The notes beneath the pieces are model-generated. The model ran no database searches. It saw nothing but the letters and a program-made list of their open reading frames with translations, and had not been told where the DNA came from. This document shows positions 2,983 through 56,998 of a stretch of DNA of 64,000 nt, one piece after another. The stretch spans positions 1 to 64,000 of the forward strand of contig JAEVEX010000074.1 in assembly GCA_016842085.1 (NCBI GenBank). The letters are read 5' to 3'. Within the stretch, counting starts at the first letter, position 1. The number at the start of each line of letters is the position of its first letter. This DNA comes from Candidatus Thermoflexus tengchongensis (GTDB lineage: Bacteria > Chloroflexota > Anaerolineae > Thermoflexales > Thermoflexaceae). Position numbers and translations under genes: made by a program.

Positions 2983-3017
2983 CAGTATCACGGGTGATCG
3001 AACATGGGCCCAGAAGC

Positions 3018-4787: not shown

Positions 4788-4931
4788 CCTCATCCTCCAG
4801 CGTGCTGGTATCCGTGGCGATCCTGCCTCATCCGCAAAGGATGGCCTTCATCCTGGATGTCGCGCGGCCCCTATCGCTTCCGTGCAGCTGCACGCTCTCC
4901 GTTTCTGAAAGATCTGCCCCGGATGGTCTCC

Positions 4932-31284: not shown

Positions 31285-32499
31285 ATGGAAGAAGAGATGA
31301 AAGAAAGGAAAAGCAGGTGGCTGGAAGAGAGGGGGCTTCAGACGCTGGAGTGGGTGGCGATCGGGCTGGTGATCCTGGCCCTGATGGGGGCGGTGGCCTT
31401 CTGGATCACGTATCGAGCTTCGGAGTCGACCGGGCGGACAGTCGGGGAGACGATCGCGCATTTCTTTGAGTGCGTGAAGCGGATGGACCTTGACTGTGTC
31501 CGGGAGGGATTTGGGAGCGCCGGGCAGCCCCAGGCCCGTCGGGATCTGGGATGGTGTTTGACCCATCCCCTGGACTGCTGGCGGGAGGTGGTGTGGCCGG
31601 GGATTCAACGGGGGGCCAGGGCGTTCTGGGAGGGCGTGAAGTGGGTGAGGCGTCAGATCGCGGAGGCCGGACGGCAGGCATGGGCGTGGATAGGTCGGCA
31701 ATGGAATACATGGCTGAAAGGGGCCGTGGCCGGGTTGCTGGCGGCGATCGTGGTGATTGGCCTGATCGCTCTGGCAGTTTTGGGCGGATTGATCACGTTG
31801 CCTGTTGCTGTGATTGCCGCGATTCTGGTGCTGGTGACTACAATTGGGGTGGGGATCTGGCAGCAGATGCAGGGCAAGGGGTTCTGGGAATGCTTTAGCT
31901 TCGCCCTGATGGTGGGATTCCTGGTAGCTGGATTTGTGATCAGTCTCTCGGTGGCTCTGGCAGGTGGATGGGCGGGAATCACGAATTGGTTACTCGGTGC
32001 TCTCCGAAATTCCGTTATTGCTACTTTTTTCAATTTAACAATGAAACCCGAGATGATCGCTCAAGCATTCAAAGGAGATCAGAGTGTTCTACAGGAAATT
32101 GGTTTAATGTTCGCTTCCAATTTGCTTGTATCTCTATGTACCTTTGGATTCATGCAAGGGTTCAAAGCCAAACTTCCAGCGTTTAAAGGAAAGCCAGTCA
32201 ATTTAAATATCCTTATTAACCGAATTAAATGGACTTTTTCGACTCCGATAACAAGACAACTGTTTTTCTCTGTTATTTCGGTTATATCAGTGAACATCTT
32301 TGGATCTTATGCACAATCAAGGATGATGGGAAAGGATTTTGATCTTGGAGAAAGCTTGATAACCAGTGTGTTTATCCTTCCGATTGCCATTGGATTGGAC
32401 ACGACTGGGTGGAACAAGTGGGTTGTAGATTCAATTAAGACTGTTTCCAAATGGGCTATTAAAAATTTGTATAAGAATTCATTGGGAGGCAATAAATGA
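31285..32499 (+). CDS. Flp-prepilin fusion protein 1 (large variable C-terminus)
   Basis: This 404-residue protein has a Flp-type leader ending in G17, with LQTLEW after it (Glu at +5) and a membrane helix at about 24-43. The family signature follows: C63 to C71, then C91-LT-HP-LD-C98. A charged amphipathic linker (100-150) and a hydrophobic region (about 155-230) come next. Last is a mainly aliphatic C-terminal 180 residues with no recognised fold. The gene's base composition changes inside it: a 60-base sample is 67% GC at 31321 but 42% at 32041 and 35% at 32221. The last four bases (ATGA) start the next gene. TadV should process the leader. The C-terminal part may be an effector, an adhesive tip or a structural domain; I cannot tell. 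Confidence 0.7.
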   Translation: MEEEMKERKSRWLEERGLQTLEWVAIGLVILALMGAVAFWITYRASESTGRTVGETIAHFFECVKRMDLDCVREGFGSAGQPQARRDLGWCLTHPLDCWREVVWPGIQRGARAFWEGVKWVRRQIAEAGRQAWAWIGRQWNTWLKGAVAGLLAAIVVIGLIALAVLGGLITLPVAVIAAILVLVTTIGVGIWQQMQGKGFWECFSFALMVGFLVAGFVISLSVALAGGWAGITNWLLGALRNSVIATFFNLTMKPEMIAQAFKGDQSVLQEIGLMFASNLLVSLCTFGFMQGFKAKLPAFKGKPVNLNILINRIKWTFSTPITRQLFFSVISVISVNIFGSYAQSRMMGKDFDLGESLITSVFILPIAIGLDTTGWNKWVVDSIKTVSKWAIKNLYKNSLGGNK

Positions 32500-32813
32500 C
32501 AGATAAAGATGAAAAGATAAGTCTAATTCTAGGGGCAGTCGGGGCCATCTGGATGTTTGGAGGGCTTGTCCTCTTTACATTCCTGGCTCGATGGCTAAGG
32601 ACGGCATGGGGAATGACATACCCGGGGCTGGAAGAGGGATTAGCTGTTCTCTATATCATATCATTGGGGATTATTGTGGTGGCTTCTATTTATTTTCAGG
32701 TCCGATCTTATATCAAATCTGGCGATATATCTGGAATTATTTTGTTTGTTTTTCAGATAATTTTGATTTTTGTTCTCGGGCGGGCGATCTGGCAGCTTCT
32801 GCGCGGAGGATAA
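32496..32813 (+). CDS. Small membrane protein coupled to fusion protein 1 (candidate immunity partner)
   Basis: This 105-residue protein has three probable membrane helices (about 8-30, 49-68 and 78-99) and charged ends. It overlaps the preceding gene by four bases (ATGA) and shares its low GC content, so the two were probably acquired together. No family is recognised. By analogy with polymorphic toxin loci, a membrane immunity protein is a reasonable idea, but an accessory role in pilus assembly is also possible. The sequence shows only the coupling and the topology. Confidence 0.6.
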   Translation: MTDKDEKISLILGAVGAIWMFGGLVLFTFLARWLRTAWGMTYPGLEEGLAVLYIISLGIIVVASIYFQVRSYIKSGDISGIILFVFQIILIFVLGRAIWQLLRGG

Positions 32814-32960
32814 GGGATCGGGTGGGGAAGGGGCTTAAGATCGATGGGTTCATTCTACTTGCCCGGATGATCCTCCGCGTGTTCTGTCCCTGAAGGAGGC
32901 GTGGGAGCTCCTGGAATGGGGAGGACCCGGAGGGCGTTCTGGATGGGGGGAAGGGTTCCG

Positions 32961-40421: not shown

Positions 40422-41662
40422 AGCGCCGGGCGCCGATGTGGCGGGTTCAGTATCTGACCGTCGCCCTGCTGGGGGCGATCACCGTTTATCTCAACCTGTT
40501 CATCAGCCTCCCCCGGGAGATCACCGGCATGCTGGAGCGTCAGGAGGCGCTGCATCGGGAGGCCTTCGCCGGGCTCCTCGGGGCTTACCTGCGGGCCCGG
40601 GAGCGCGACGGCGTCCCCCTCGAACAGGCCCTGCGGGAAGTGGGGCCATGGCTCACCGGCTACGCCTTCTACGCCTTCCCCCCGGAGGTCCCCGAGCTCC
40701 CGGTTGGGGTCTCCTCCCTGGGGGTCGCGCTTCCGGACGGCCGGCGGCTGGCGATCGGGTCGAATCCGGTGGGCTGCGCGGCGTGTTCGGCCCCGGGCTT
40801 CTGGATCCGGCTGTTTGGCCTTTCCATAGCGATCTGGCTGGCCCTGGTCGCCGTGCATTTGTGGCTCTGGATCCGGTTCTCGACATGGCTGAGAAGGATC
40901 CAGATGACGGCCCAGGCCATCGTCGCCGGGGAGGTCCATCCTCCGCTTCCGCCGGTCTCTCCGGACGAGCTGGGGCAGATCGCGGAGGCCCTGGGGCAGA
41001 TCGCCGCGGCCCTGGCCCGCTTCCGGGAAGCTCGCCGCCGCTTCCTGATGGCTGCCGCTCACGAGCTGCTCAATCCCCTCAGTGTCCTGGTTCGCGAGCT
41101 GGAAGATCTTCGAGCCCTCGGGCTGGTCGGGGAAGCGGCGGATCGGGCGCGACGGGCCCTGGACCAGGGGCGGCATCTGCAGCGCCTGATCGAGGATCTG
41201 CTCATCGCCGCCCGGGAGGACCAGGCGGCCTTCCCGATGCGGACGGAGCCGCTGGATCTGGCCGATCTCCTGGTTTCCGTGGTGGAAGCCTACGCGCCGC
41301 GCATCGAGGCCGGGGGGCGCAGGGTGAAGCTCCAGCTCCAGGCGGCTTCCCTTCCCATTCGTGGGGATCCCACCCGTCTGCGCCAGATCCTGGGGAACCT
41401 GCTGGAGAACGCCCTGCGATACAGCCGCCCGGGGGAGACCATCCAGGTGATCGCCGGACAGGGGGAGCGGGTGGTGGTGGAGATCTGCGGCGGGACGTCG
41501 GAGGCAGAGGGATCCGGACTGGGACTGGGGTGGGCCATCGTCGAGGAGCTCATGCGGGGGCATGGGGGATCCATGGAATTCCTGGAGGGGGCGGAGGGGG
41601 TCCTGCATGTCCGCCTCATCTTCCCGCTGGATCCCTCCGCCAGGGTTCCGCCGCCGGCATAA
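40418..41662 (+). CDS. Sensor histidine kinase with atypical ATP-binding domain
   Basis: This 414-residue protein has two membrane helices (about 12-32 and 131-152) around a small extracytoplasmic region with a CxxC pair (GCAACS). A HAMP-like helix follows, then the phospho-acceptor H215 (AAAHELLNPLSVL) and the N box (NLLENALRYS). The G1 box (DxGxG) and the F box are missing; only the G2 motif SGLGLGWAIV remains. The ATP lid is therefore unusually short. It may still be active, or it may work mainly as a phosphatase. It is coupled to the response regulator upstream and lies just before the prepilin peptidase gene, suggesting a role in pilus regulation. Confidence 0.82.
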   Translation: MKRRAPMWRVQYLTVALLGAITVYLNLFISLPREITGMLERQEALHREAFAGLLGAYLRARERDGVPLEQALREVGPWLTGYAFYAFPPEVPELPVGVSSLGVALPDGRRLAIGSNPVGCAACSAPGFWIRLFGLSIAIWLALVAVHLWLWIRFSTWLRRIQMTAQAIVAGEVHPPLPPVSPDELGQIAEALGQIAAALARFREARRRFLMAAAHELLNPLSVLVRELEDLRALGLVGEAADRARRALDQGRHLQRLIEDLLIAAREDQAAFPMRTEPLDLADLLVSVVEAYAPRIEAGGRRVKLQLQAASLPIRGDPTRLRQILGNLLENALRYSRPGETIQVIAGQGERVVVEICGGTSEAEGSGLGLGWAIVEELMRGHGGSMEFLEGAEGVLHVRLIFPLDPSARVPPPA

Positions 41663-41705
41663 CGGCGCAGCGCCCCTGCGCCCTTCTTTATCCGGGAGGC
41701 ATGCC

Positions 41706-42143
41706 ATGCATCCGGTAGAGATCCTTCTGCGAGCCGCGATGACGATCGGGGTGCTGATCGCCGCCGTCACCGACCTGCGGGCGCGGCGTATCCCGAACGC
41801 CTTCACCCTCCCGGCCATCGGGATCACCCTGGGGGTCCGGCTGGCGCAGGGGGAGGCGATCAGCGCCGTCGCCGGGGCGCTGATCGCGGCCCTCGTTTTT
41901 TTCCTTCCGGTGGCCATCGTAGGGCCGGAGCGGGCGGGGGCGGGGGATCTCAAGCTGGGGGTGGCCCTGGGGTTGCTCGCGGGGTTCCCCCGGGTGATCG
42001 AGCTGCTGCTGATCGCCTTCGGGGTCACCGCTATGGCCGGCCTGGTTCTGTGGATCGGCCGCCGCTTGCCGGCCGATCGAACCCTTCCGATGGCCCCCGG
42101 GCTGGCCCTGGGTGCCCTGTGGATCATGTGGGGCCCCGCCTGA
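41706..42143 (+). CDS. tadV: TadV/CpaA-type prepilin peptidase
   Basis: This 145-residue aspartic membrane protease removes the leader from Flp prepilins and pseudopilins. The catalytic aspartates are D23 (TDLRARRIPN) and D81 (GAGDLKLG, the GxGD motif). There are about four membrane helices and no methyltransferase domain, as is usual for TadV. It is directly upstream of the flp gene, which has its own promoter. It is expected to process the canonical Flp, the large Flp fusions and the TadE-like protein in this window. Confidence 0.9.
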   Translation: MHPVEILLRAAMTIGVLIAAVTDLRARRIPNAFTLPAIGITLGVRLAQGEAISAVAGALIAALVFFLPVAIVGPERAGAGDLKLGVALGLLAGFPRVIELLLIAFGVTAMAGLVLWIGRRLPADRTLPMAPGLALGALWIMWGPA

Positions 42144-42312: not shown

Positions 42313-42567
42313 ATGATGCGCAAGGTGATGGACCGGATGGTGGAGGGGTATGTCCGTCTTCGCGTGGGGCTGGGGGGCCTCGTGGAGGACGCCCGCGGCC
42401 TCCAGACCCTGGAGTGGGTGGCGCTGGCCATCGTCATCCTGGCCCTGCTGGGTGCAGTTGCAGCTATTGTGGGCAAGCAGGATAGTGGCGTGGCCCAGGC
42501 GGTGGCGAATGCGATCCAGAATTTCTTCGAGAGGCTCCTCGCCTGGGAATGGAAAAGTGCCAAGTAA
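42313..42567 (+). CDS. flp: Flp pilin (canonical major pilin)
   Basis: This is an 84-residue prepilin. The leader ends at G29 and the mature part starts LQTLEW, with Glu at +5, followed by a hydrophobic helix (35-55). The second position after Glu is Trp rather than the usual Phe or Tyr. The mature pilin is about 55 residues, the normal Flp size. AAGGAGGTGA precedes the ATG, and a second ATG follows directly. It lies after the prepilin peptidase gene behind its own regulated promoter and ends in a strong terminator, so it is probably highly expressed. Confidence 0.9.
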   Translation: MMRKVMDRMVEGYVRLRVGLGGLVEDARGLQTLEWVALAIVILALLGAVAAIVGKQDSGVAQAVANAIQNFFERLLAWEWKSAK

Positions 42568-42637: not shown

Positions 42638-42800
42638 GTTCCCCTCCGGCGAAACTCCAGAGGGATCTCCCCGTTCGAAGGGAGGACACTAAGGAAAGGG
42701 ATGCCCCTTTATGTTCGCTGTCCCATTGCCTGAGCCCTGTGGCGCAGTGGAATTCCGGCATGATCTCCAGAAACCCATCCCTGGATGAGGGGGGTGGAAG

Positions 42801-43589
42801 ATGCGGCGGTGGGCGAAAGGGGAGCGAGGCTTATAGACGCTGGAGTGGGTGGCGATCGGGCTGATGATCCTGGCCCTGAGGGGGGCGGTGGCGCTGGTCC
42901 TGGCCCGTCCCTCGACGGGGGCGGGGGAGGCGGTGGCGGAGGCCATCGCGCGGATGTTCTGGTGTCTCACGGACGCCCGGGGTTGCCCGGGGGCGGGGGA
43001 GGGGAACGCCTTTGGGGCGAACCCGCCGGGGGCGAATCCACTGGGAGAGAACATGCCGGATCGGACGTGATGTGGAACCCATCCGGTGTGGTGTGTCTCG
43101 AATGTGGGAAAGGGGGTGGCGGATCGATGGGAAGATGCGACCCAGGGGTTCAGACAGGTGTGGGAGGGCTCGAAGGCCCCAGTGCAGGGAGTATGGGGGA
43201 AAGTTTGGAACATTGTCCTGGCTTCGATGGTAGGTATGCTCATGCTTCTCGGAACTGGATTTCTGGCTGATCGGAGGCTTCCCGGAGATCCAGGGAACGG
43301 GAATGGTTCCGGAATCTCCTTCCCGAAACGGGTATTAGCTGTTGCTATGTTGGTGCCATTTCTTTTGCTTGTCGATGTCTCGCTGTTCCTTCTCACGTTA
43401 AGCAACACGGTCTTCTTGTTGACCTCTCCTGACCCCTCATCCAGGATCCTGGCTCTATCTGCAGAGGTCATTCTCATCATCGGTGACCTGTTCCTGGTTT
43501 TTGTGCACGTGCAGCTCGTTCATTGGGCGATCACGGGGAGGTGGATACGAAGTGTAAAGGATATGACGGACTGGTCGTTGCGGCCGTGA
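42801..43589 (+). pseudogene. Flp-prepilin fusion gene with two in-frame stop codons
   Basis: The frame from the ATG at 42801 encodes a Flp-type leader (MRRWAKGERGL) and then TAG (42834-42836) where the intact relatives have CAG. TLEWVAIG follows. A second stop, TGA (43068-43070), replaces the TGG (Trp) before the CxxHPxxC motif. After it the frame reads CGTHPVWC and continues to a hydrophobic C-terminus ending at 43589. Both changes are single transitions in an otherwise intact frame. The C-x6-C motif (CLTDARGC) and Gly/Pro-rich linker are preserved. It is probably a recently inactivated copy. Readthrough of both stops is possible but unlikely. Confidence 0.8.
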
Positions 43590-43620
43590 GGGGGTGGAGA
43601 AGCGCCCTGGGAGGGAGGCG

Positions 43621-43977
43621 ATGGCCTTGTGGAGCGGGTTTTGCTTCAGCGGGCTCTATCCGCAATCTGGACCTCTGGGGACCTTGCCCCCCGGGTCCGG
43701 GAGGCCGCTCTGGCAGCGAGCGCTCACGATCCTTCCGGCCCTGACGGGCTTTCTGGTGCTCGATGGGACCCTGGCGGCTCTGACCGTTGCGAACTCGCTG
43801 GCTCGGATGGCAGCCCCGGATTCGGTCTCGAAGGGCGTTCGGGTGGTGAACGAGCGGACCCTGGTGGAGGCGGATGGGGTGGTGGCCTGGGCGCATCTTT
43901 CCCATGCTCACCGAGTATGGACCGGGCGTCCGATCCGGTCGTGGAGGGATCTTCGAGATGGGAGGCCGCGGCCATAG
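43621..43977 (+). CDS. Small protein resembling the C-terminal part of the fusion pseudogene at 42801
   Basis: This is a 118-residue product. Its C-terminal 80 residues resemble those of the preceding pseudogene (TGRPIRSWRDLRDG versus TGRWIRSVKDMTDW near the ends), but it lacks the Flp leader and helix. The hydrophobic middle stretch suggests membrane contact. It may be an orphan C-terminal module or a partner protein. ATG 43621 follows GGAGGGAGG; a GTG at 43594 in the same frame is an alternative. The 3' end of the gene is also found duplicated at 48235-48301. Confidence 0.5.
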   Translation: MALWSGFCFSGLYPQSGPLGTLPPGSGRPLWQRALTILPALTGFLVLDGTLAALTVANSLARMAAPDSVSKGVRVVNERTLVEADGVVAWAHLSHAHRVWTGRPIRSWRDLRDGRPRP

Positions 43978-44040: not shown

Positions 44041-45048
44041 ATGATCCGGAGGTGGATGCGGGGATCGAAGGGCTTGCAGACGCTGGAGTGGGTGGCGATC
44101 GGGCTGGTGATCCTGGCCCTGATGGGGGCGGTGGCGCTGGTCCTGGCCCGTCCCTCGACGGGGGTGGGGGAGGTGGCGGCGGAGGCCATCGCGCGGATGT
44201 TCCGGTGTCTTACGGATGTTTCGGCCTGCATCGGGCTGGCATCCGGGGCGACTCCGGTTTCGATATGGGCGGCGGTGGGGGAATGCTTCATGCATCCGGA
44301 GCGCTGTATTGTGCGGTGGTGGACGTGCTGGCGGCAGGGGACGTGTGGGCCGGCGGACTGGGTGGGGTTGCTGGGGTTGCTGCCCTGGCTGTTGACGCCC
44401 TTTGGGGTGCTGGCGGTCGGCATTCGGGCGGTGCCGATCCCGTGGTGGAAGCGGGCGGGAGATCTCGTTAACTCCTGGCTGGATGAGGCTGTCGGGTTGT
44501 ATCAGACGGTGCGGGATATCCTGAAGGTGCGGCACCTGCAGTTCATCCGCCGACCGGGAGGCAGGGTGAGCATCCGGGCCCTGAAGCCGCCCGGAGCCCG
44601 GGAGGCGTATCGGGTGGGGCTTCGGTCTGATTGGGAATTTATCTCCCGTCGAGGAGGGCTTTATAAGCCCGGGACGATTGCGGCGGGGACAGCGAAGGGA
44701 TTGCTGAAGTCCTCGGTTTCGAAGGGAAGCCTGATCACCAGTGCAGTGGTGTCGCTGGTGCAGAACCTGTGGACCTTTGGGACGGATCCTTCTCAGGGGG
44801 CGACTTTCTGGGATCGGACGGTGAAGAACCGGAAGTTCTGGATTTCGACGGGGGTGGATTTCGCCCTCAGCGTGGCCACCGGCGTGGCCGCCGCCGCGAT
44901 CGTGGGCGGTGTTCTCGTTGCCACCGCTGCCACCTCGCCTCTTGCAGTTGCAATAGGGCTTACATTTGTGGCATCGGTTTTGCTGAGCATGGCCCTGGAT
45001 CAACTGGGTGTTCCGGATCGGATCAAATCCTGGCTGGGGGGGCGGTGA
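44041..45048 (+). CDS. Flp-prepilin fusion protein 2
   Basis: This 335-residue protein has the leader MIRRWMRGSKG, then LQTLEW (Glu16 at +5), a membrane helix (about 18-36), C56-x6-C63 and C82-FM-HP-ER-C89. The C-terminal 190 residues contain basic segments, then Gly/Ala/Val-rich hydrophobic helices (ATGVAAAAIVGG, then LAVAIGLTFVASVLLSMA). They end SWLGGR at the stop. The hydrophobic hairpin pattern resembles C-termini of polymorphic toxins, but I cannot assign a family. The 5' half is almost identical to the gene at 48365. The ATG of the next gene begins one base after the stop, so they are coupled. GGAGGAGGCGAAGG precedes the start. Confidence 0.7.
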   Translation: MIRRWMRGSKGLQTLEWVAIGLVILALMGAVALVLARPSTGVGEVAAEAIARMFRCLTDVSACIGLASGATPVSIWAAVGECFMHPERCIVRWWTCWRQGTCGPADWVGLLGLLPWLLTPFGVLAVGIRAVPIPWWKRAGDLVNSWLDEAVGLYQTVRDILKVRHLQFIRRPGGRVSIRALKPPGAREAYRVGLRSDWEFISRRGGLYKPGTIAAGTAKGLLKSSVSKGSLITSAVVSLVQNLWTFGTDPSQGATFWDRTVKNRKFWISTGVDFALSVATGVAAAAIVGGVLVATAATSPLAVAIGLTFVASVLLSMALDQLGVPDRIKSWLGGR

Positions 45049-45049
45049 G

Positions 45050-45724
45050 ATGGTTCGGTGGCGTAAGCTTTCTCGAAAGCGGCGCTCGGAGATCCTGTGG
45101 GGGATCGCCGGGTTCTTATATTTGCTGATCATCCTTCCTTTCCTGGCGTGGATGGCGAATTCGGCGCGGCTTCGGAACTTCAACCGTTTCCCCTCCTGGG
45201 CGGAGATCTTCCCCGCTTTCCTCATCAGCCCGCTGGTCCTGGTGGCGCGGCTCAGCGGGGAACGGCGGGGGTGGATCCCCTGGCTGTCCCGAACGCTGTG
45301 GATGGGGATTGCGGGTCTGTGGGTCCTCTCCTATCCGGTGGTTTACTGGCCGCTGCTTCTGCCGAAGGGGTGGGGGTGGGTTCCTGTCGTCACCTATGGG
45401 CTGGGGCTGGTCATCGGCCTGGCCTATGGGTGGTGGCGCGGGTGGGATGCGCTGACGGATCGCCTGGAGCGGATGCTCTGGGTGGTGGCTCTGTTCAGCG
45501 GTGGGAGCGCGGCGGGTCCGCTGGGGGCGCATCTGGGGATGCAGGCCTCCCGTTCGGGGGGGTATGGGCTGGTGGATGTTTTGCTGATCCTGGTGATGAC
45601 GGGGATCGGATACTGGGCGTTTTTTGCGGGGATCGCCCAGAACTGGCATCTGCGCCCCCTGGGCTTGCGCCTCGGGGCGAGGGCGGCGTCGGGCCTGGGG
45701 GAGGAGCCGGGGATGAAATCCTAA
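45050..45724 (+). CDS. Multi-pass membrane protein, paralogue of 49470
   Basis: This 224-residue protein has about six membrane helices and a basic N-terminus (MVRWRKLSRKRRSEI). It is nearly identical to the product at 49470 over most of its length. No family is recognised. It starts one base after the stop of fusion gene 2 and is probably its functional partner, perhaps a membrane immunity or assembly protein. The ATG at 45050 was preferred over an upstream start inside fusion gene 2. Confidence 0.6.
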   Translation: MVRWRKLSRKRRSEILWGIAGFLYLLIILPFLAWMANSARLRNFNRFPSWAEIFPAFLISPLVLVARLSGERRGWIPWLSRTLWMGIAGLWVLSYPVVYWPLLLPKGWGWVPVVTYGLGLVIGLAYGWWRGWDALTDRLERMLWVVALFSGGSAAGPLGAHLGMQASRSGGYGLVDVLLILVMTGIGYWAFFAGIAQNWHLRPLGLRLGARAASGLGEEPGMKS

Positions 45725-45754: not shown

Positions 45755-46060
45755 ATGATCTCCCCCAATCGGACCGAGATGATGTGGTTTGCCCTGGGCC
45801 TGGTGTGGTTTGTCCTGGTGGGCCCTCTCTTGATCGGGCTATCGATGGAGTTGGGCTTATGGCCGAAGCTGTCGTTCTGGATCGCCTTCCTCTATGTCCT
45901 GATCTGGGTTCTGCTAACGGGGATAGGGTTTTCTCTTTACTCGCGCCGTGTGGCCCGGGAGATGGGGATGGGAGGTCTGGTGGTGACGGTGATCTGGATC
46001 GGGCTGGCGATCCTGCTGGCCCGGGGGCTTCTGGTGGCTTTTCGCTTGGTGGGGCACTGA
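45755..46060 (+). CDS. Small membrane protein, tandem copy 1
   Basis: This 101-residue protein has three probable membrane helices (about 11-30, 38-58 and 75-95). The last 40 residues are almost the same as those of the next copy at 46276, and 88 bases of DNA are identical (45942-46029 versus 46463-46550). The N-termini differ (NRTEMMWFALGLVWFVLV versus DRREMTLIILSFVWFFVI). Function is unknown. Its place behind fusion 2 makes it a candidate partner or immunity protein. Confidence 0.55.
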   Translation: MISPNRTEMMWFALGLVWFVLVGPLLIGLSMELGLWPKLSFWIAFLYVLIWVLLTGIGFSLYSRRVAREMGMGGLVVTVIWIGLAILLARGLLVAFRLVGH

Positions 46061-46275: not shown

Positions 46276-46581
46276 ATGATCTCTCCAGATCGAAGGGAGA
46301 TGACGTTGATTATCCTGTCATTTGTATGGTTTTTTGTGATAAGTCCCCCTTTGCTATGGCTGTCTATACGTTTGGGGTCGCCTCCCACGACGAGGGTCTG
46401 GATAGGGTGGGCCGTTTTCTTGATTTTTGCCCTGCTGGGTGGGACAGCGGTTTTTCTCTATACGCGCCGTGTGGCCCGGGAGATGGGGATGGGAGGTCTG
46501 GTGGTGACGGTGATCTGGATCGGGCTGGCGATCCTGCTGGCCCGGGGGCTGCTGTCGGCTCTTCGCTCGATGGGGCACTGA
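46276..46581 (+). CDS. Small membrane protein, tandem copy 2
   Basis: This 101-residue paralogue of the gene at 45755 has the same three-helix layout and an identical 3' stretch. The N-terminal two thirds have diverged, and the 5' part is less GC-rich. Function is unknown. The 215 bases between the two copies (46061-46275) hold no gene I can support. An AGAGGAAG precedes the start. Confidence 0.55.
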   Translation: MISPDRREMTLIILSFVWFFVISPPLLWLSIRLGSPPTTRVWIGWAVFLIFALLGGTAVFLYTRRVAREMGMGGLVVTVIWIGLAILLARGLLSALRSMGH

Positions 46582-46627: not shown

Positions 46628-46888
46628 ATGGGATACTGGATGGGGTTGACGCTGGGCCTTCTGGGGACACTGGTCGTGGGCCTGGCGACCGGTGTGGATC
46701 GCGATCCCTCTGGCCGCTATGCCATGGCCGTCATCGCGGCCCTGACGCTGGTGGCAGGGATTGGGGTCCTCTGGGAGAACGGGCCAGCGAGGGAGACCCG
46801 GCACGCTCGGGTTCTCCGGGTGATGCTCTGGCTGTTGCCAGTCTTCCTGTTCCTGCTGTGCCGTGTCATCGCGCTGGCTGCTCCATAG
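46628..46888 (+). CDS. Small membrane protein, paralogue of 32961
   Basis: This 86-residue protein has three hydrophobic stretches (about 5-22, 30-47 and 63-80). It is a paralogue of the 98-residue protein at 32961, which follows the fusion-1 cassette. Its presence here, followed by a decayed piece resembling the 33351 gene, suggests that a block like 31.3-33.5 kb once existed at this place. Function is unknown. GGAGGATG precedes the ATG. Confidence 0.55.
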   Translation: MGYWMGLTLGLLGTLVVGLATGVDRDPSGRYAMAVIAALTLVAGIGVLWENGPARETRHARVLRVMLWLLPVFLFLLCRVIALAAP

Positions 46889-46907: not shown

Positions 46908-47126
46908 GCTCCCCTGCGATCCGGATGGATCCCCCTCGTTCTCGTTCTGGTGCGGGTGTTTCGGTCTCCCATGTCGGGAGTGGCTGCTCCGTCAAATGAG
47001 GATCCGTTGGGAAGGGTTCCGGATCCGGGGCTCCGGGAGCGGAGGACGGATCTCCTTCTTCTCTGGACCGCCGCCTCGCCCTTTGATCGGATCCTGCGGA
47101 TTCGGTCTGGCCTCTTGCCCCACCTT
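46908..47126 (+). pseudogene. Decayed fragment related to the gene at 33351
   Basis: The translation of this stretch includes GRVPDPGLRERRTDLLLLWTA. It matches GRAPDPGLRDAMGDLLTLWGA near the start of the 33351 product, in the same relative position to the paralogous small gene upstream. It has no start, and the similarity ends after about 40 residues. It is best read as a remnant of a duplicated cassette. Confidence 0.5.
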
Positions 47127-47142
47127 CTCATCGACCCTTCTC

Positions 47143-47181
47143 TTTATTTTGATAACAGGGATTGGATTTCACGATACAGTA
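47143..47181 (+). pseudogene. 5' remnant of a 49133-like gene, cut by the IS element
   Basis: Thirty-nine bases match 49157-49195 (about 36 identical by eye), which encode the start of the first membrane helix (LFILITGIGFH). The match stops exactly at the TA that borders the IS element. The rest of the gene is missing on the other side. Confidence 0.5.
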
Positions 47182-48232
47182 GACTCGTTGCACAATAAGA
47201 GCAGAAGAGGGATGCCCTATGCATTTCCGAATGGATCAAGCCTTTTCGAGTGCCAAGCGTTCTTGAGTCCGACGGTTCACGATGGCGGCCACAAGGATAA
47301 AGATGGCATCGTGAATCTCGAGACTATGACGGAAGCGTTCACTCAGCGCCCGAAACTGTTTTATCTGCGCCAGGACATGTTCTATCACGATGCGCACGCG
47401 GGACAACTCCCGGTTCATCAACTTCTGATCCGCTGTCAAGGGATGGTTGCGCCGCGCCTTGTGGGGGGTAGCCACACTGTGGAGGGGCAAATCCTTATGC
47501 AGACCGTCAAAGCCGGCGTCGCCCATCACCCCAACCTCCTGGGGAATCCGCCTCAGGACACCCGACTCCCGAAAGTGACGCAGGTCGTGCACCGAACCGG
47601 GGGTCGAGGGAGTCACCGCGCGAATCAGCCCCTCTTCGTTCACGACCAGACCGTTCTTAACCGTGTGCCGCTTCTTCTTGCCCGAGTAGAACACCCGCTG
47701 GCGTTCGGGATCCGCAGGCCGCTGTATGGGTTGCTCCGTCCCATCCAAAATGGCGAACAGGTCGGGGCAAGTGGCCAGCATTTCGGGCAGGTCCTTCCCC
47801 CGCGAGGGCGGGTCGGGCCATTCCATCTCCCCCTCCGGGACCTGACGCAACACCGCCAGAATCCGCCGCCCATTGCGACTCACCGTGGCCTTGTCCACCC
47901 CAAACAGCGCGGCCAAGGCCGCCGTCGACAAGTAGAGCCGCACCCACATCATCGTCATCAACAGGTAGGTCGCCAGGTCCAACTTGTAAGCGCGTCCCGC
48001 TCCCACGGCTCGCTGCCGGTCCGGTCGGCTCAGGCGTTTCCGTTCCGCTTCTTCCCAAACCGGCAAGAAACGCTTGCACAGCTCTTCGAATTCCTCACGG
48101 CTCAGGCCTGTAAGAGCTCTCAGAGCTTCAGGACGGCGCTTCAGGATGTCACACCGGAGCATTCTTCCTCCCCTCGCCTCGTGAGGTTGGGAAGAATATT
48201 GTCCTCCATTCCTCCCTACTGTGCAACGACTC
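47182..48232 (-). mobile_element. IS5-superfamily insertion sequence, 1051 bp
   Basis: The ends carry imperfect inverted repeats: GACTCGTTGCACAATA at 47182 and, read inward from 48232, GAGTCGTTGCACAGTA. Both ends are bordered by TA (47180-47181 and 48233-48234), fitting a two-base target duplication. One transposase gene fills the element. The flanks belong to different genes, so an adjacent deletion or recombination probably occurred after insertion. Confidence 0.8.
47236..48162 (-). CDS. IS5-type DDE transposase
   Basis: This 308-residue transposase has an N-terminal helix-turn-helix region (residues 70-110, ALFGVDKATVSRNGRR). A DDE-superfamily endonuclease domain follows, with aspartates in FAILDGTEQPI and VMGDAGFDG. 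The glutamate is in IEHVLAQIKQFRAL. The catalytic set looks complete and the frame is uninterrupted, so the element may be active. The family is the HARBI/IS5 type (DDE_4). The start is the ATG at 48162, 70 bases inside the element's right end. Confidence 0.85.
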   Translation of the reverse strand: MLRCDILKRRPEALRALTGLSREEFEELCKRFLPVWEEAERKRLSRPDRQRAVGAGRAYKLDLATYLLMTMMWVRLYLSTAALAALFGVDKATVSRNGRRILAVLRQVPEGEMEWPDPPSRGKDLPEMLATCPDLFAILDGTEQPIQRPADPERQRVFYSGKKKRHTVKNGLVVNEEGLIRAVTPSTPGSVHDLRHFRESGVLRRIPQEVGVMGDAGFDGLHKDLPLHSVATPHKARRNHPLTADQKLMNRELSRVRIVIEHVLAQIKQFRALSERFRHSLEIHDAIFILVAAIVNRRTQERLALEKA

Positions 48233-48234
48233 TA

Positions 48235-48301
48235 CTGGGTATGGACCGGGCGTCCGATCCGGTCGTGGGGGGATCTTCGGGATGGGAGGCCGCGGCCATA
48301 G
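48235..48301 (+). pseudogene. 3' remnant of a second copy of the 43621 gene
   Basis: The 67 bases encode a VWTGRPIRSWGDLRDG-type tail and stop, matching the end of the 43621 gene at a constant offset of 4324 bases. The rest of the copy is missing, and the IS element lies directly upstream. Confidence 0.65.
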
Positions 48302-48364: not shown

Positions 48365-49129
48365 ATGATCCGGAGGTGGATGCGGGGATCGAAGGGCTTG
48401 CAGACGCTGGAGTGGGTGGCGATCGGGCTGGTGATCCTGGCCCTGATCGGGGCGGTGGCGCTGGTCCTGGCCCATCCCTCGACGGGGGCGGTGGAGGCGG
48501 TGGCGGAGGCCATCGCGCGGATGTTCCGGTGTCTTACGGATGTTTCGGCCTGCATCGGGCTGGCATCCGGGGCGACTCCGGTTTCGATATGGGCGGCGGT
48601 GGGGGAATGCTTCATGCATCCGGAGCGCTGTATTGTGCGGTGGTGGACGTGCTGGCGGCAGGGGACGTGTGGGCCGGCGGACTGGGTGGGGTTGCTGGGG
48701 TTGCTGCCCTGGCTGTTGACGCCCTTTGGGGTGCTGGCGGTCGGCATTCGGGCGGTGCCGATCCCATGGTGGAAGCGGGTGGGAGATCGCGTCTACTCCG
48801 GCTCGATAAAGCTGCCGGGTTGTTCCAGTGACAGTAGGGATATCGGGAAAGGACAGCCTCTGAGCCCAGAGGAGCAGATAGGCTTGATTGTAACAGGTGG
48901 AGCGGTTGTAATTGGTTTTACATTTGCTGAACTCACGCTCGCTATATTGGGAGTTGCAGCAGCGCATGCAGGTCCTCCGGGTGTTGTTTTTGATATCCTG
49001 ATTATCTTCCCTATCGAGCTATTTTTAATAGATATGGAGGTATCAATTATAGTTTCAATTTATCGAAGCATCTCCACAGGTAAGAAACAGCCTGTAATCC
49101 TGCTTCCGCCATGGGGACTGGAGGAATAA
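48365..49129 (+). CDS. Flp-prepilin fusion protein 3 (chimeric C-terminus)
   Basis: This 254-residue protein has the same leader, membrane helix, C-x6-C and CFMHPERC signature as fusion 2. The DNA is about 98% identical to 43916-44462 (11 mismatches by eye over some 545 bases). After residue 140 (VPIPWWKR) it switches to an unrelated 115-residue C-terminus with aliphatic helices (GLIVTGGAVVIGFTFAELTL, then LIIFPIELFLID). The new part is AT-rich: a 60-base sample is 30% GC at 49021 against 72% at 48421. It was probably joined by recombination. The next gene starts three bases after the stop. Confidence 0.7.
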   Translation: MIRRWMRGSKGLQTLEWVAIGLVILALIGAVALVLAHPSTGAVEAVAEAIARMFRCLTDVSACIGLASGATPVSIWAAVGECFMHPERCIVRWWTCWRQGTCGPADWVGLLGLLPWLLTPFGVLAVGIRAVPIPWWKRVGDRVYSGSIKLPGCSSDSRDIGKGQPLSPEEQIGLIVTGGAVVIGFTFAELTLAILGVAAAHAGPPGVVFDILIIFPIELFLIDMEVSIIVSIYRSISTGKKQPVILLPPWGLEE

Positions 49130-49132
49130 GGA

Positions 49133-49414
49133 ATGAAAGTATCTTCAATTGTTCTGTTTATTTTGATAACAGGGATCGGATTTCACGCTACAATATATTC
49201 TGCGTATTTTCTGCGTTATCGGGCTTACTTCTCGCCTTTCTTCTCGGCTTGCATTGTAGCGGGGATTTGGGGCTTGACATGGTTTCTGGCGGTCACCGTC
49301 CCGGCGGGTTTTGTAAAGGATTCCGTTGTAGTGGGGAGTTTGCTGGCCTTGCCCCATCTTGTCATCAGCCACATCATGGCCCGGATTTGGTTTCAGGCTG
49401 GGGGGCGAAGGTGA
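49133..49414 (+). CDS. Small membrane protein coupled to fusion protein 3 (candidate immunity partner)
   Basis: This 93-residue protein has three probable membrane helices (about 4-24, 33-56 and 62-85). It is AT-rich at its start like the end of fusion 3, and begins three bases after it, so the two form one module. A fragment of a related gene is at 47143-47181. No family is recognised. An immunity role is inferred from position and topology only. Confidence 0.6.
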   Translation: MKVSSIVLFILITGIGFHATIYSAYFLRYRAYFSPFFSACIVAGIWGLTWFLAVTVPAGFVKDSVVVGSLLALPHLVISHIMARIWFQAGGRR

Positions 49415-49444: not shown

Positions 49445-49468
49445 AGCTCCCGGCTGGGGGGGCGGTGA
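49445..49468 (+). pseudogene. Remnant of the old 3' end of a fusion-2-like gene
   Basis: These bases read S-S-R-L-G-G-R-stop and are almost identical to the SWLGGR-stop at the end of fusion gene 2 (45025-45048). The same ATGGTTCGGTGGCG follows. It marks the point where a displaced C-terminal module was left behind. Confidence 0.6.
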
Positions 49469-49469
49469 G

Positions 49470-50144
49470 ATGGTTCGGTGGCGGAGGCTTTCTCGAAAGC
49501 GGCGTTCGAAGATCCTGTGGGGGATCGCCGGGTTTTTATATTTCCTGATTGTTTTCCCCTTCCTGGCCTGGATGATGAATTCGGTGCGGCTGCGGGAGGT
49601 CGCGCGCTTTCCCTCGTGGGTGGAGATCTTCCCGGCCTTCATCCTCAGCCCGCTGGCTCCTGTCGCGTCTCTCGCCGGGGAACGGCGGGGGTGGATCCCC
49701 TGGCTTTCCCGAACGCTGTGGATGGGGATCCTGGGCCTGTGGGTGCTCTCCTATCCGGTGGTTTACTGGCCGCTGCTTCTGCCGAAGGGGTGGGGGTGGG
49801 TTCCTGTCGTCACCTATGGGCTGGGGCTGGTCATCGGCCTGGCCTATGGGTGGTGGCGCGGGTGGGATGCGCTGACGGATCGCCTGGAGCGGATGCTCTG
49901 GGTGGTGGCTCTGTTCAGCGGCGGGAGCGCGGCGGGCCCGCTGGGGGCGCATCTGGGGATGCAGGCCTCCCGTTCGGGGGGATATGGGCTGGTGGACATC
50001 CTGGTGATCCTGGTGATGACGGGGATCGGATACTGGCTGGTCTTTGCGGGGATCGCCCAGAACTGGCATCTGCGCCCGCCGGGCCTGCGCCTCCGCCGAG
50101 GCTTTTCCCATCCTTCGTCCCACGATGAGCCGGCCGTCGGATGA
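49470..50144 (+). CDS. Multi-pass membrane protein, paralogue of 45050
   Basis: The 224-residue product has about six membrane helices and is nearly identical to that of 45050 except in the N-terminal 80 residues and the C-terminal tail. Here the gene follows the remnant of a fusion gene's end rather than an intact one. So it is a leftover from the ancestral fusion-2-type cassette. No family is recognised. The ATG at 49470 follows the duplicated junction and not the longer open frame upstream. Confidence 0.6.
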   Translation: MVRWRRLSRKRRSKILWGIAGFLYFLIVFPFLAWMMNSVRLREVARFPSWVEIFPAFILSPLAPVASLAGERRGWIPWLSRTLWMGILGLWVLSYPVVYWPLLLPKGWGWVPVVTYGLGLVIGLAYGWWRGWDALTDRLERMLWVVALFSGGSAAGPLGAHLGMQASRSGGYGLVDILVILVMTGIGYWLVFAGIAQNWHLRPPGLRLRRGFSHPSSHDEPAVG

Positions 50145-53508: not shown

Positions 53509-54663
53509 ATGCTGCGGAGGTGGATGCGGGGATCGAAGGGAGTGCAGACGCTGGAGTGGGTGGCGCTGGCGCTGGTGGTGCTGGCGCTGATTGGGGCGGT
53601 GACGGCCTGGATGAACGGGCCGGGGGGCGTCCAGGTGGCAGCGCCGATCCAGCAGGCGTTGCAACGGTATGCGTGGTGTCTGGAGGGTGCCGGGGGGTGC
53701 CCGGGGGCGGGAGGGGGAAGTCCCTTTGGGACGAATCCGCCGGGCGTCCGGCCTCCTGGGGTGAACCCGCCGGGAGGGAACCCACCCGGGAATCCACCGG
53801 GAGGGAAGCCGCCGGATCTGGGGTGGTGCGTGACCCATCCGGGGGATTGTCTCTCGAATTTGGGGAAGTGGGCGGCGGATAAGTGGGAGGATGTGAAACG
53901 GGGGGCTGGACAGGCATGGGAGGGCCTGAAGTCCACGGCGGAGGGTGTATGGAAATGGCTGGATGAGCATAAGGGGATCGTGGCGGGGGTTGTAGTTGGC
54001 CTGGCTGCTGCCGGTCTGATCTTGGCGACTGGCGGCCTGGCCCTTCCGGTGGTCCTGACAGCCCTGGCGGCGGGAGGAGGCGCTTTCCTGTTCGGTTGGC
54101 TCTATCAGCAATCGGGCCCCAAACCGGGCCTGCAGGGGTGGTTGGAGGCCTTCGCGCTTGCTGGCATAGGAGCGGTCATGGGTTATCTGGTCGCCCATGG
54201 TGGGGCTATGTTATTGAAAGAGGTTGGCTTGTCAGGTATTCTCCGCCTATTCGTTAGCAAGGGCATCATTGGAGGTGTTTCATCAGGAATTAGTTATTTG
54301 ATACTTACTCCGCCGGATCAGCGATCGTGGATTGGGGCGGGCGTAGCGATTGGAAGTGGGATCATAACAGAGATGCTCGCATGGCCAGCGGCGAAAGCGG
54401 CTGTGGTATCCATTGCTGGGGCGATAGAGGCCGCGCGCCGGAAGGAGCTGACTTGGCAGACCCCGGTACGGGCGTTTGGCCAATCCTTCTTTCTGGAACA
54501 GCCTGGGAGCAAAGTGTATAACCGGGTCTTCGGCCGGGGTGTGGGGAAGGGCCTCGGGTGGCTTTCGGGTAAAGGGATTTCCATATCTCCGCCCAATTTC
54601 GTAATGCGGGTCGCGAACCGGGTCTCCTGGGATGTGATCAAGAGCAAACTGTTTGGGATGTAA
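53509..54663 (+). CDS. Flp-prepilin fusion protein 4
   Basis: This is a 384-residue protein. The leader ends at G11, followed by VQTLEW with Glu16 at +5 and a membrane helix (18-34). C57-x6-C64 is followed by a Pro/Gly/Asn-rich linker (65-102) and C107-VT-HP-GD-C114. An amphipathic segment (116-150) and hydrophobic Gly/Ala-rich helices (155-215) follow. The C-terminal 170 residues are mixed and end near VIKSKLFGM. DNA after about 54180 is less GC-rich (48% in a 60-base sample). It has its own predicted promoter, so it may be co-regulated with flp. Two paralogous small membrane genes and a truncated third follow, starting 15 bases after the stop. Confidence 0.72.
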   Translation: MLRRWMRGSKGVQTLEWVALALVVLALIGAVTAWMNGPGGVQVAAPIQQALQRYAWCLEGAGGCPGAGGGSPFGTNPPGVRPPGVNPPGGNPPGNPPGGKPPDLGWCVTHPGDCLSNLGKWAADKWEDVKRGAGQAWEGLKSTAEGVWKWLDEHKGIVAGVVVGLAAAGLILATGGLALPVVLTALAAGGGAFLFGWLYQQSGPKPGLQGWLEAFALAGIGAVMGYLVAHGGAMLLKEVGLSGILRLFVSKGIIGGVSSGISYLILTPPDQRSWIGAGVAIGSGIITEMLAWPAAKAAVVSIAGAIEAARRKELTWQTPVRAFGQSFFLEQPGSKVYNRVFGRGVGKGLGWLSGKGISISPPNFVMRVANRVSWDVIKSKLFGM

Positions 54664-54678
54664 AACAAGGAGGCAGAA

Positions 54679-55014
54679 ATGTCGAATAAATCCTTCAACA
54701 CTCGGATTCACCCATTGTTCATCGTGGGCTTTTTAATCATGGTGGTGGATCTCATCGCTGCTGTTTACTGGGCGATAGAGATTCAAAAACCCCGAGCAAT
54801 TGCGCTGAAAGCGGCGGGGGCGTGGACGTGGTGGGATGAGATCCTGGATAAGCTGATCCTCATGGGGTTCTGGGTGATCGGCTACATGGGCTATGTGATC
54901 CAGAACCTGCCGGAATACCGCTGGAGCTGGAAGCAGGCGGCCCGGTCGGGGCTGGAGGCGGTGATCTCGGGGGCGATCGTTGGTGCCCTTTATGCCCTGA
55001 TGTCCCGCCGATAA
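54679..55014 (+). CDS. Small membrane protein A behind fusion 4 (candidate immunity partner)
   Basis: The 111-residue protein has two to three membrane helices (about 12-32, 53-71 and 92-108). It starts 15 bases after fusion 4 with AGGAGG before the ATG. It is a close paralogue of the next gene: the openings MSNKSFNTRIHP and MSGKSFDPKIYP and the ends SGAIVGALYALMSRR and SGAIVGALYAMISRR match. DNA is AT-rich near the start (40% GC in a 60-base sample). Duplication of a partner gene is typical of immunity genes but is not proof of that role. Confidence 0.62.
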   Translation: MSNKSFNTRIHPLFIVGFLIMVVDLIAAVYWAIEIQKPRAIALKAAGAWTWWDEILDKLILMGFWVIGYMGYVIQNLPEYRWSWKQAARSGLEAVISGAIVGALYALMSRR

Positions 55015-55086: not shown

Positions 55087-55422
55087 ATGTCTGGTAAATC
55101 CTTTGATCCCAAGATTTATCCATTGAACATTGTGGGCTTTTTGATCATGGTGGCCGATCTCATTGCACTGGGATACTGGGCGCTGGCCATCGAGAAGCCC
55201 CGGGCAATCGCCAAGATGGCGGCGGGGCAATGGACGCTGTGGGATGAGATCATCGAAAAATTGATCATCATCGGGTTCTGGGTGATTGCCTATATGGGCT
55301 ACACGGTTGGGGCATTGCCGGACAACAAGTGGGACTGGAAACGTGCGGCCCAATCCGGTTTGGAAGCGGTCATCTCGGGAGCAATTGTTGGCGCCCTTTA
55401 TGCCATGATATCCCGGCGGTAG
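55087..55422 (+). CDS. Small membrane protein B, tandem paralogue of A
   Basis: This 111-residue protein has the same length, helix layout and conserved ends as the gene at 54679. Most differences are in the two loops (PRAIAKMAAGQWTLW versus PRAIALKAAGAWTWW). The 70 bases between the two genes hold no gene. It may protect against a related effector or be a second subunit. Confidence 0.62.
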   Translation: MSGKSFDPKIYPLNIVGFLIMVADLIALGYWALAIEKPRAIAKMAAGQWTLWDEIIEKLIIIGFWVIAYMGYTVGALPDNKWDWKRAAQSGLEAVISGAIVGALYAMISRR

Positions 55423-55584: not shown

Positions 55585-55645
55585 GCCGTCCCGTTCCCGG
55601 GTTTTCCGGGACGTTCCATGGGCCAAGAGATTTGTGAGGTATAAA

Positions 55646-55942
55646 ATGAAAAAAGCCGTATCAATAATTGGGAGAATATTGCTTATTTTAAGTATTATCG
55701 CTCTCAATTATTATGCCCTTGTCTGGGCTAAGCCTCGTCTGGCCCGAGGGGAGATCACGTGGCTGGAGGACAAGCTCATTCTCCTGGGGATCTTCCTCGT
55801 GGGGCTCCTTGGCGGCGCGATGATTTTCATCCCCAAGGAGGGATGGGAGAAGGGCCGGCGGACGCTGGTGGATCTGATCCTCAGTAGGGTGGCGATTGGC
55901 CTCCTTGTCAGCCTGATGACCTATCTGGGGCTGGTGAAGTAA
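55646..55942 (+). CDS. Small membrane protein, unknown
   Basis: This 98-residue protein has three probable membrane helices (about 6-26, 43-62 and 78-97). The first 70 bases are AT-rich. The middle (KPRLARGEITWLEDKLILLGI) loosely resembles the KPRAIA...WDEILDKLILMGF of genes A and B, so it may be a distant relative. It is the last gene before tadE. No family is recognised. Confidence 0.55.
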   Translation: MKKAVSIIGRILLILSIIALNYYALVWAKPRLARGEITWLEDKLILLGIFLVGLLGGAMIFIPKEGWEKGRRTLVDLILSRVAIGLLVSLMTYLGLVK

Positions 55943-56018: not shown

Positions 56019-56396
56019 ATGCGTGGCCTTTGCGATGAGCGCGGCGCGGAGACGGTGGAGTTAATCGCCGGGCTGCCGCTCCTGTTTCTGTTTGTGCTGG
56101 TGGGATGGCAGTTGCTCGCAGTGGGCTACACGGCGATGGTGGCCTCGGCTGCCGCCCGGGAGTGCGCCCGACAGGAGGCGGTAGGCGCCAGCGGCATCGC
56201 CGCGGCCCAGCGGGTGATCGGAACCTGGGCGCCGGGAGCCCAGGTGCAACCCCTCGGGGGCGGGGATGCCCGGGGATGTCAGGTGACGCTGCGACCGCCC
56301 CAGGTGCCGTTGCCCTTCCGGCTCCATGAGCGCATCCAGTTGCCGCCCGTGGTGGTCACGGCCTGGATGCGCTGGGAGAGGAGGTTCGGATGGTGA
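56019..56396 (+). CDS. tadE: TadE-like pseudopilin
   Basis: This 125-residue protein has a short leader ending at G9, then AETVEL with Glu at +5, followed by a membrane helix (about 15-38). TadV probably processes it. TadE-type pseudopilins are minor components needed for pilus formation. The start at 56019 follows GGAGGGG. The next gene overlaps by seven bases. Confidence 0.82.
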   Translation: MRGLCDERGAETVELIAGLPLLFLFVLVGWQLLAVGYTAMVASAAARECARQEAVGASGIAAAQRVIGTWAPGAQVQPLGGGDARGCQVTLRPPQVPLPFRLHERIQLPPVVVTAWMRWERRFGW

Positions 56397-56998
56397 GGGC
56401 GTGGTGGCGGGAAGAACGAGGGGCCTCGACGCTGCTGATGATCATCCTGGGCTTCCTGCTAATGCTCGGGGCCGCCGTGCTCTTCAACTTCGCCCTCCTC
56501 GGCTACGTCCGGCACCGGGCGGTGACGGGGGCCGATGCCGCCGCCCTGGCCGGCGCGGAGGAGATCGCCCGGTATCTGAGCACCACGTGGGAGTTGTGCG
56601 CCCCTGCCGGGACGCCACCCGCGGAGATCGTGAGGGAATACGACATGGCCCGCCCTCAGGCGGCGGTGTGGTCCCAGATGGGGTTCGCCCAGGCTTCCGC
56701 TTATGCGGCCGCCAACGGAAGCCGCCTCACCCGCTACCGGGTGCGCTGGGGGGCCGAAACCTGGAACGTGCAGGGATACCCGCTGCGGCAGATCCTGGTC
56801 GATAGCGCCGTGAAGCGCCCCTACGGGCTGGCGGGACCGGTGGTGGGGGGGCGTCAGGGGGAGATGGGGGCGGAGGCGACGGCCGAGGTCTATCTGAGCC
56901 GATATGAATTCAACGCCTGGGATTGCAGCCCGAATCCGGAAACCCCCATGGTTTACTACTGGTTTCGCTTCACGTGGAGGATCCGTCTGGTACGGTGA
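56390..56998 (+). CDS. TadG-like (TadE/G family) pilus assembly protein
   Basis: This 202-residue protein has the basic leader MVRAWWREERG, then ASTLLMIILGFLLMLGAAVLFN and the GADAAALAGAEEIARY segment typical of TadG-like putative pilus assembly proteins. The Glu at +5 of true pseudopilins is absent. Beyond residue 60 it is a soluble extracytoplasmic domain. The gene overlaps tadE by seven bases, so they are coupled. Confidence 0.75.
   Translation: MVRAWWREERGASTLLMIILGFLLMLGAAVLFNFALLGYVRHRAVTGADAAALAGAEEIARYLSTTWELCAPAGTPPAEIVREYDMARPQAAVWSQMGFAQASAYAAANGSRLTRYRVRWGAETWNVQGYPLRQILVDSAVKRPYGLAGPVVGGRQGEMGAEATAEVYLSRYEFNAWDCSPNPETPMVYYWFRFTWRIRLVR

Follow-up and report, generated by a model that had tools for sequence, protein, structure and literature searches.

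What is an open reading frame that begins as a pilin and ends in AT-rich DNA doing in a Tad locus, and why does the gene of a small membrane protein follow it so closely? The frame, here called fusion 3, is the third of four long pilin-leader frames in the window (the whole 64-kb stretch of DNA that was analysed). We put the probability at about three in four that fusion 3 and the adjacent 93-residue gene form a putative toxin-immunity cassette of a polymorphic toxin system with a Flp/Tad class-III prepilin as its trunk. The initial annotation had presented the two genes as an effector-like protein and its partner, and this reading is supported by the presence of the pair in another family, by an older C-terminal domain (CT) that was displaced, and by a related Tad locus with recognised toxin and immunity domains.

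A prepilin leader joined to an AT-rich tail

The pair and its parts are as follows.

48365-49129, forward strand: fusion 3, 254 aa, trunk plus AT-rich CT2 tail
48365-48790, forward strand: N-terminal trunk of fusion 3, with class-III prepilin leader, pilin helix and a spacer of ~100 aa
48791-48844, forward strand: transition, where alignment still recognises the start of the fusion-2 tail via a compensated frameshift
48845-49129, forward strand: CT2, foreign AT-rich C-terminal domain of ~95 aa, putative membrane-active toxin
49133-49414, forward strand: 93-aa partner gene, three transmembrane helices, putative cognate immunity protein

The leader of fusion 3 is of the Flp/Tad class-III type (RGSKG|LQTLEW, with E at +5 and then a hydrophobic helix), and in the prepilin leader test (RGSKG|LQTLEWVAIGLVILAL) the G, T, E and W columns were invariant across the aligned leaders. 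The curated Pfam Flp profile gave no match, even for the short pilin of the locus, and fusion 3 is therefore classed as bearing a Flp-type prepilin leader, not as a Flp pilin. A domain search of the window showed that Tad ATPase, platform proteins and A24 peptidase are encoded together with fusion 3, and the four long frames share leader and pilin helix (consensus ..G|[LV]QTLEWVA...VILALxGAV), with a small multi-transmembrane frame directly 3' of each of these four intact pilin fusions.

28682-31186, forward strand: CpaF/TadA-type ATPase, two T2SSE units in one 834-aa frame (tandem double)
31285-32499, forward strand: fusion 1, 404 aa, AT-rich tail
32496-32813, forward strand: fusion 1 partner, 105 aa, three transmembrane helices
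34778-37172: two platform proteins, T2SSF (TadB/TadC-like), downstream of the ATPase
Within the frame 41562-42143, forward strand: prepilin peptidase (Peptidase_A24), expected to be the leader-cleaving enzyme
42313-42567, forward strand: short Flp-type pilin of the Tad locus
42785-43589: degraded pilin fusion, with a stop codon in the pilin part
44041-45048, forward strand: fusion 2, the parental module, with the same trunk as fusion 3 and another C-terminal domain, CT1
45050-45724, forward strand: fusion 2 partner (p1), 224 aa, multi-transmembrane; pair conserved in the closest complete genome (G004)
53509-54663, forward strand: fusion 4, 384 aa, followed by tandem small transmembrane genes
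56390-56998: TadE-like protein, in the downstream part of the locus

The trunks of fusion 3 and fusion 2 (44041-44469) are 94% identical in protein sequence over ~142-143 residues, beyond which the two proteins are unrelated. The foreign segment had originally been started at 48787; we move its border to about 48845, because the alignment with fusion 2 does not stop at 48793 but crosses a one-base deletion, made good within ~50 bases, and fusion-2 homology reaches 48844.

The contrast in base composition on which attention was first drawn to the pair is borne out, with 30.0% GC at 49021-49080 against 71.7% at 48421-48480. Overall, GC content is 45% in CT2 and 49% in the partner gene, compared with 64.9% in the window. 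When the 64 kb were scanned in 285-bp windows, values below 47% occurred only at 48781-49335 and 31861-32925, both of which are the tail and partner of a pilin fusion (fusions 3 and 1, respectively), and the contrast is for this reason not a chance dip. The most AT-rich stretch of the window is fusion 1 with its partner (31285-32813, down to 35% GC), which is probably a second imported cassette.

CT2 contains two long hydrophobic helices according to both hydropathy and structure prediction, although the two-helix model is of low confidence (pLDDT 65) and a Foldseek search of the PDB with this fold returned no match. Three acids (E189, D223, and E225) that lie within or beside these helices are conserved between CT2 and its one clear relative in another genome (G165, below), as is a short tail, LLPPWGL[ED][ED]. 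The partner gene begins three bases past the fusion, as had been read from the sequence initially (stop codon at 49127-49129, spacer exactly GGA), and a Shine-Dalgarno-like GGAGG stands ahead of it within the last codons of fusion 3. The three helices ascribed to its product are seen in hydropathy (transmembrane segments 3-21, 36-54, and 65-83), by which the protein is nearly all membrane-embedded, and in an AlphaFold2 model with helices at 3-29, 35-55, and 58-90, again of low confidence (pLDDT 64, pTM 0.37). Both models are weak because only two homologues exist. The partner and its G165 homologue are positively charged in loop 1 and at the C-terminus, a pattern that suggests a topology that is probably N-out/C-in.

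Searches of Pfam, NCBIfam, PHROGs, PADLOC, and PDB sequences returned nothing meaningful for CT2 or the 93-aa partner and no recognised toxin domain in CT2, such as is present in a related protein of another genome (G203, below). No CT of the 64-kb window matched a known toxin family, and plasmid, phage, and viral-contig searches likewise returned nothing.

A cassette displaced the older tail of a duplicated module

Comparison of fusion 2 with fusion 3 shows how the pair came to its present place. The DNA of the two is ~96% identical from the upstream region (43910 vs. 48234) to the end of the trunk; fusion-2 homology then returns at 45028 vs. 49448 and continues through a copy of the old partner.

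49448-49469, forward strand: scar, in which the displaced fusion-2 tail survives as its final seven codons and stop
49470-50144, forward strand: orphan partner, a 224-aa membrane protein 89% identical to the fusion-2 partner

From the break in homology and its return at the scar it follows that the fusion-2 module underwent duplication and that CT2 and the 93-aa gene replaced or displaced the tail of the copy; 49470-50144 is a putative orphan immunity gene left by this displacement. Trunk and CT are thus modular, CT and partner travel together, and in a duplicate of the module an older tail gave way to the cassette. The closest complete genome has fusion 2 and fusion 4, each with its own partner, and lacks fusion 3. 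It had been proposed that the pattern of fusion 1 has arisen here again with unrelated sequences. The likeness of pattern stands, and the two pairs are indeed unrelated, with partner against partner at chance level (z 0.24); an origin in place does not, as the fusion-2 duplicate most likely received the CT2 and 93-aa pair by import, in the form of an AT-rich cassette.

An insertion sequence and a fragment of a second partner gene lie to the left of the duplicated block.

47138-47181, forward strand: partner-gene remnant, what is left of a second 93-aa gene (nt 20-63), interrupted by the insertion sequence
47177-48237, reverse strand: IS5-group insertion sequence, transposase 47236-48162, inverted ends CAGTAGA[CG]TCGTTGCACA

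The right end of the IS5-group element is exactly the left edge of the duplicated block. No target-site duplication was seen at 47177-48237 and the element is present as a single copy in the genome assembly, and it is for these reasons that we regard a role in the rearrangement as possible; the element may have taken part in it. The piece of a related small gene noticed early near 47143 is the remnant listed above (44 bp, 89% identity, truncated by the IS). Partner nt 211-234 have a short match of their own at 47107-47132, and the order within 47107-47181 is scrambled, with a stretch from the 3' part of the 93-aa gene directly before one from the 5' part, as if a deletion had fused two tandem copies of the gene.

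Small transmembrane genes are also found elsewhere in the window without a fusion of their own.

45755-46060 and 46276-46581, forward strand: two orphan 101-aa genes, three transmembrane helices, kin of the partner gene found after a pilin fusion in another genome (G002)
54679-55014, 55087-55422, and 55634-55942, forward strand: tandem array after fusion 4, three related small transmembrane genes, homogeneous and immunity-like

An 86-aa, three-transmembrane frame at 46628-46888 has no relative among the partners and may be one more orphan immunity gene. Taken together, these genes and the remnant amount to a heterogeneous array of orphans (45755, 46276, 46628, and 49470), a tandem array (54679, 55087, and 55634), and a decayed 93-aa copy (47138). 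In the region of the degraded fusion (42785-43977) two paralogous frames follow, at 43086 and 43594 (31% identical), and related frames stand in the same place in G004.

CT and partner types co-vary (CT1-p1, CT2-p2, CT4-p4). The CT1-p1 pair occurs in two genomes (kept in G004) and the CT4-p4 pair in three (kept in both G004 and G002). Fusion 1, too, has a relative in G002, with a diverged tail and with a partner of the same family as the orphans at 45755 and 46276. That all of the small partners belong to one family was considered and is unsupported by hhalign, which found no convincing mutual homology among p1, p2, p4, and pA/pB; the exceptions were p4 with the gene at 55634 and a weak full-length similarity between pA and pB.

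Relatives in other genomes and the toxin reading

CT2 was searched for in 396 genomes of the class. The search yielded one clear relative, in another family (G165; E 3.8e-6, 39% identity on the alignment), at the start of a contig, and directly after it comes a 99-aa frame related to the 93-aa partner (BLASTP E 2e-5; shuffle z 8.0, compared with z ≤3.0 for 15 further small membrane proteins from these loci). Both frames were by a wide margin the best of the 20-kb region against their respective queries. The joint sequence search proposed at the outset thus finds CT2-like and partner-like frames side by side; since they occur in only two genomes, conservation of CT2 rests on this one pair. The trunk in G165 is cut by the contig start; the upstream residues that are visible (EQERWAARRQAMLEED...) are unlike the trunk of the window, and a search of the other contigs for the start of this trunk did not find it. 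A partner that is common away from Flp fusions had been named as evidence against the pairing, and the 93-aa protein was not found widely alone in ~400 genomes of the class.

Two scans of genome contigs, one with the trunk and one with the CT2 alignment, gave no confirmed relative. Weak CT2-like or partner-like matches in G199, G281, and G013, opened among several with E of about 0.001-0.1, were set aside as chance similarity; the match in G199 has a stop inside it and no partner frame after it. A 1,764-aa open frame with a pilin match (G003) is an artefact that arose from a masked run of N, and inspection of a pilin match in G703 showed no fusion with a partner.

A search with the leader profile found a Tad locus in a third family (G203), where two long pilin-leader frames accompany a short Flp pilin and TadE-like proteins. 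One of these (580 aa) has a glycine-rich hydrophobic tail and is followed by a 97-aa, three-transmembrane frame, a design like that of the window. The other (641 aa) carries PT-HINT (PF07591, E 2e-16) and Endonuclea_NS_2 (PF13930, E 9e-32), both above Pfam cut-offs; the next gene codes for a YezG-like immunity protein (PF04634, E 3e-11, above cut-off) whose closest solved relative is EsaG. A PilS-like Pfam match of the G203 partner was weak, fell under the cut-off, and was rejected. A further pair stands in a Tad locus of another family of the phylum (G542), outside the sampled class.

L115 (G203:C125) 2622-5089, reverse strand: pilin-leader toxin and immunity gene, inside the Tad locus
L136 (G542) 3706-5199, reverse strand: 227-aa pilin-leader frame, three bases, then a 268-aa Ntox37 frame

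Pilin-leader proteins of this phylum therefore bear recognised polymorphic toxin domains, in at least one case within a single frame, namely the 641-aa frame of G203.

Several features by which polymorphic toxins are recognised are present at this locus: a shared trunk with abruptly different CTs, a downstream gene that co-varies with them, and scars and orphans. A recognised toxin domain is not strictly required, as polymorphic toxin systems are as a kind open to new ones. We infer that CT2 may be a membrane-depolarising toxin, exported by the Tad machine and neutralised in the membrane by its partner; delivery by Tad is suggested by the prepilin leader together with the Tad locus. In the mechanism that we propose, the leader peptidase would cleave fusion 3 at G|LQTLE, and the Tad ATPase and platform would handle the protein as a pilin or pseudopilin, taking it either into the envelope or out of it. 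On contact, CT2 would enter the cytoplasmic membrane of the neighbour as a two-helix hairpin, where E189, D223, and E225 could conduct protons or ions so that the membrane potential collapses. The 93-aa protein in the membrane of the producer would block assembly of its own toxin, and older immunity genes might be retained as orphans against kin that still bear the older tails.

The same data can be read in other ways. Fusion 3 might be an ordinary large minor pilin or pseudopilin whose tail anchors or caps the pilus, with the small transmembrane protein as a non-toxic assembly helper. We judge this improbable: the prepilin leader is a true one, the gene is in a tad locus, and the tail matches no toxin family, but a structural part of a pilus would not be expected to exchange its C-terminus along with the next gene, and orphan and tandem copies of a helper, or its occurrence on another trunk, would be just as unexpected. 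The module is also missing from a closely related complete genome that retains the neighbouring Tad-locus genes, and in G203 a pilin-leader protein of the same architecture bears a nuclease-toxin domain and is followed by an immunity gene. Very improbable, in our estimate, is that fusion 3 is decaying debris, an accidental join from IS activity that is functionless at present. Leader, reading frame, CT end motif, and partner frame are all intact, the frameshift is compensated, and residues of CT2 are common to a distant homologue, even though the left edge is occupied by an IS, the junction has a short frameshifted stretch, and decayed relatives occur at 42785-43589 and, as the remnant, at 47138.

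Within the polymorphic toxin reading itself, CT2 might be something other than an ionophore, its helices serving as a translocation or entry segment or its target being a membrane enzyme (lipid or cell-wall). We think this unlikely, if less so than the two preceding explanations. Separate entry domains mediate the membrane insertion of CDI ionophore toxins (PMC11630599), and the conserved tail LLPPWGL[ED][ED] is polar; however, only ~20 residues follow the two helices, too few for a separate enzymatic domain, and the near-total membrane embedding of the partner fits a membrane target. The reading of fusion 3 and its neighbour as a toxin-immunity cassette is well supported. A broader proposal, for which we see the odds as even, is that the Tad-pilus machines of this phylum are a general platform for contact-dependent toxins, in which pilin-leader proteins would be a class of polymorphic toxins, CT cassettes (depolarising hairpins, HINT-nucleases) would be swapped together with immunity genes, and the pilus subunit would be the carrier of the warhead.

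Comparison with known systems

The locus resembles polymorphic toxin systems (PMC3482391) in its constant trunk, exchangeable C-terminal domain, and immunity gene directly downstream, as well as in its homogeneous and heterogeneous immunity arrays; it differs in that the trunk is a Flp/Tad prepilin and the CT has no named toxin domain. The portions of the 2012 survey available to us (Zhang et al., 2012, PMC3482391) make no mention of pilin, Flp, or TadE, and the tip displacement described here thus occurs on a trunk type absent from those portions of the standard survey of polymorphic toxins. In the G203 protein, as distinct from fusion 3, there is a further likeness to the EsaD/EsaG-type and LXG nuclease toxins of the T7SS, namely the Endonuclea_NS_2 end and the YezG/EsaG-like immunity protein, but that protein has a prepilin leader in a tad locus and not an LXG/WXG trunk.

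The nearest functional analogues are the CDI ionophores with their CdiI proteins (CdiA-CT EC93 type; PMC11630599), whose small helical CT depolarises the membrane of the target and is blocked by a hydrophobic immunity protein of 72-100 aa; the pair described here has in common with them a small, hydrophobic CT, predicted to be helical, and a small hydrophobic protein as its putative immunity partner. Fusion 3 has neither a CdiA trunk nor a VENN motif, as checked in its translation, and its trunk is a prepilin. CT2 has two predicted helices (pLDDT 65) where the CDI toxins have a five-helix bundle, the two being likened by description, and the partner is a hydrophobic three-transmembrane protein of 93 aa where the CDI immunity protein is a two-helix hairpin. 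The membrane-acting toxin/immunity candidate described here is without sequence relatives in the toxin libraries searched.

A toxin domain on a Flp pilin has been described for CD38-like ARC domains, in one sentence and one figure of the part of the source available to us (PMC12605009). There the domain is an ADP-ribosyl cyclase and the bacteria are others, and that part describes no array, membrane-active CT, or displacement. Flp pilins with toxin domains were otherwise absent from the literature searched, the scope of which excluded subscription journals and preprints, and delivery of a toxin by a pilus subunit, as is probable here, is a route that has hardly been described. In the T6SS of V. 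cholerae an incoming effector-immunity module takes the place of the old effector, whose 3' end is pushed back, and the old immunity gene is left as an orphan (PMC5361080); the displacement is the same here, in a Tad locus and in a duplicated copy beside an IS5 element. The Kil Tad-like apparatus of Myxococcus xanthus is needed for contact-dependent killing, with toxin secretion left open by its authors (PMC8460266). Both are Tad-type machines, and toxin-bearing pilins are not reported for Kil. Toxin delivery by type IV filaments has thus been suspected without an identified cargo, for which cassettes with a prepilin leader are a concrete candidate, and exchangeable toxin-immunity cassettes in tad loci point to a possible route by which Tad systems could kill their neighbours.
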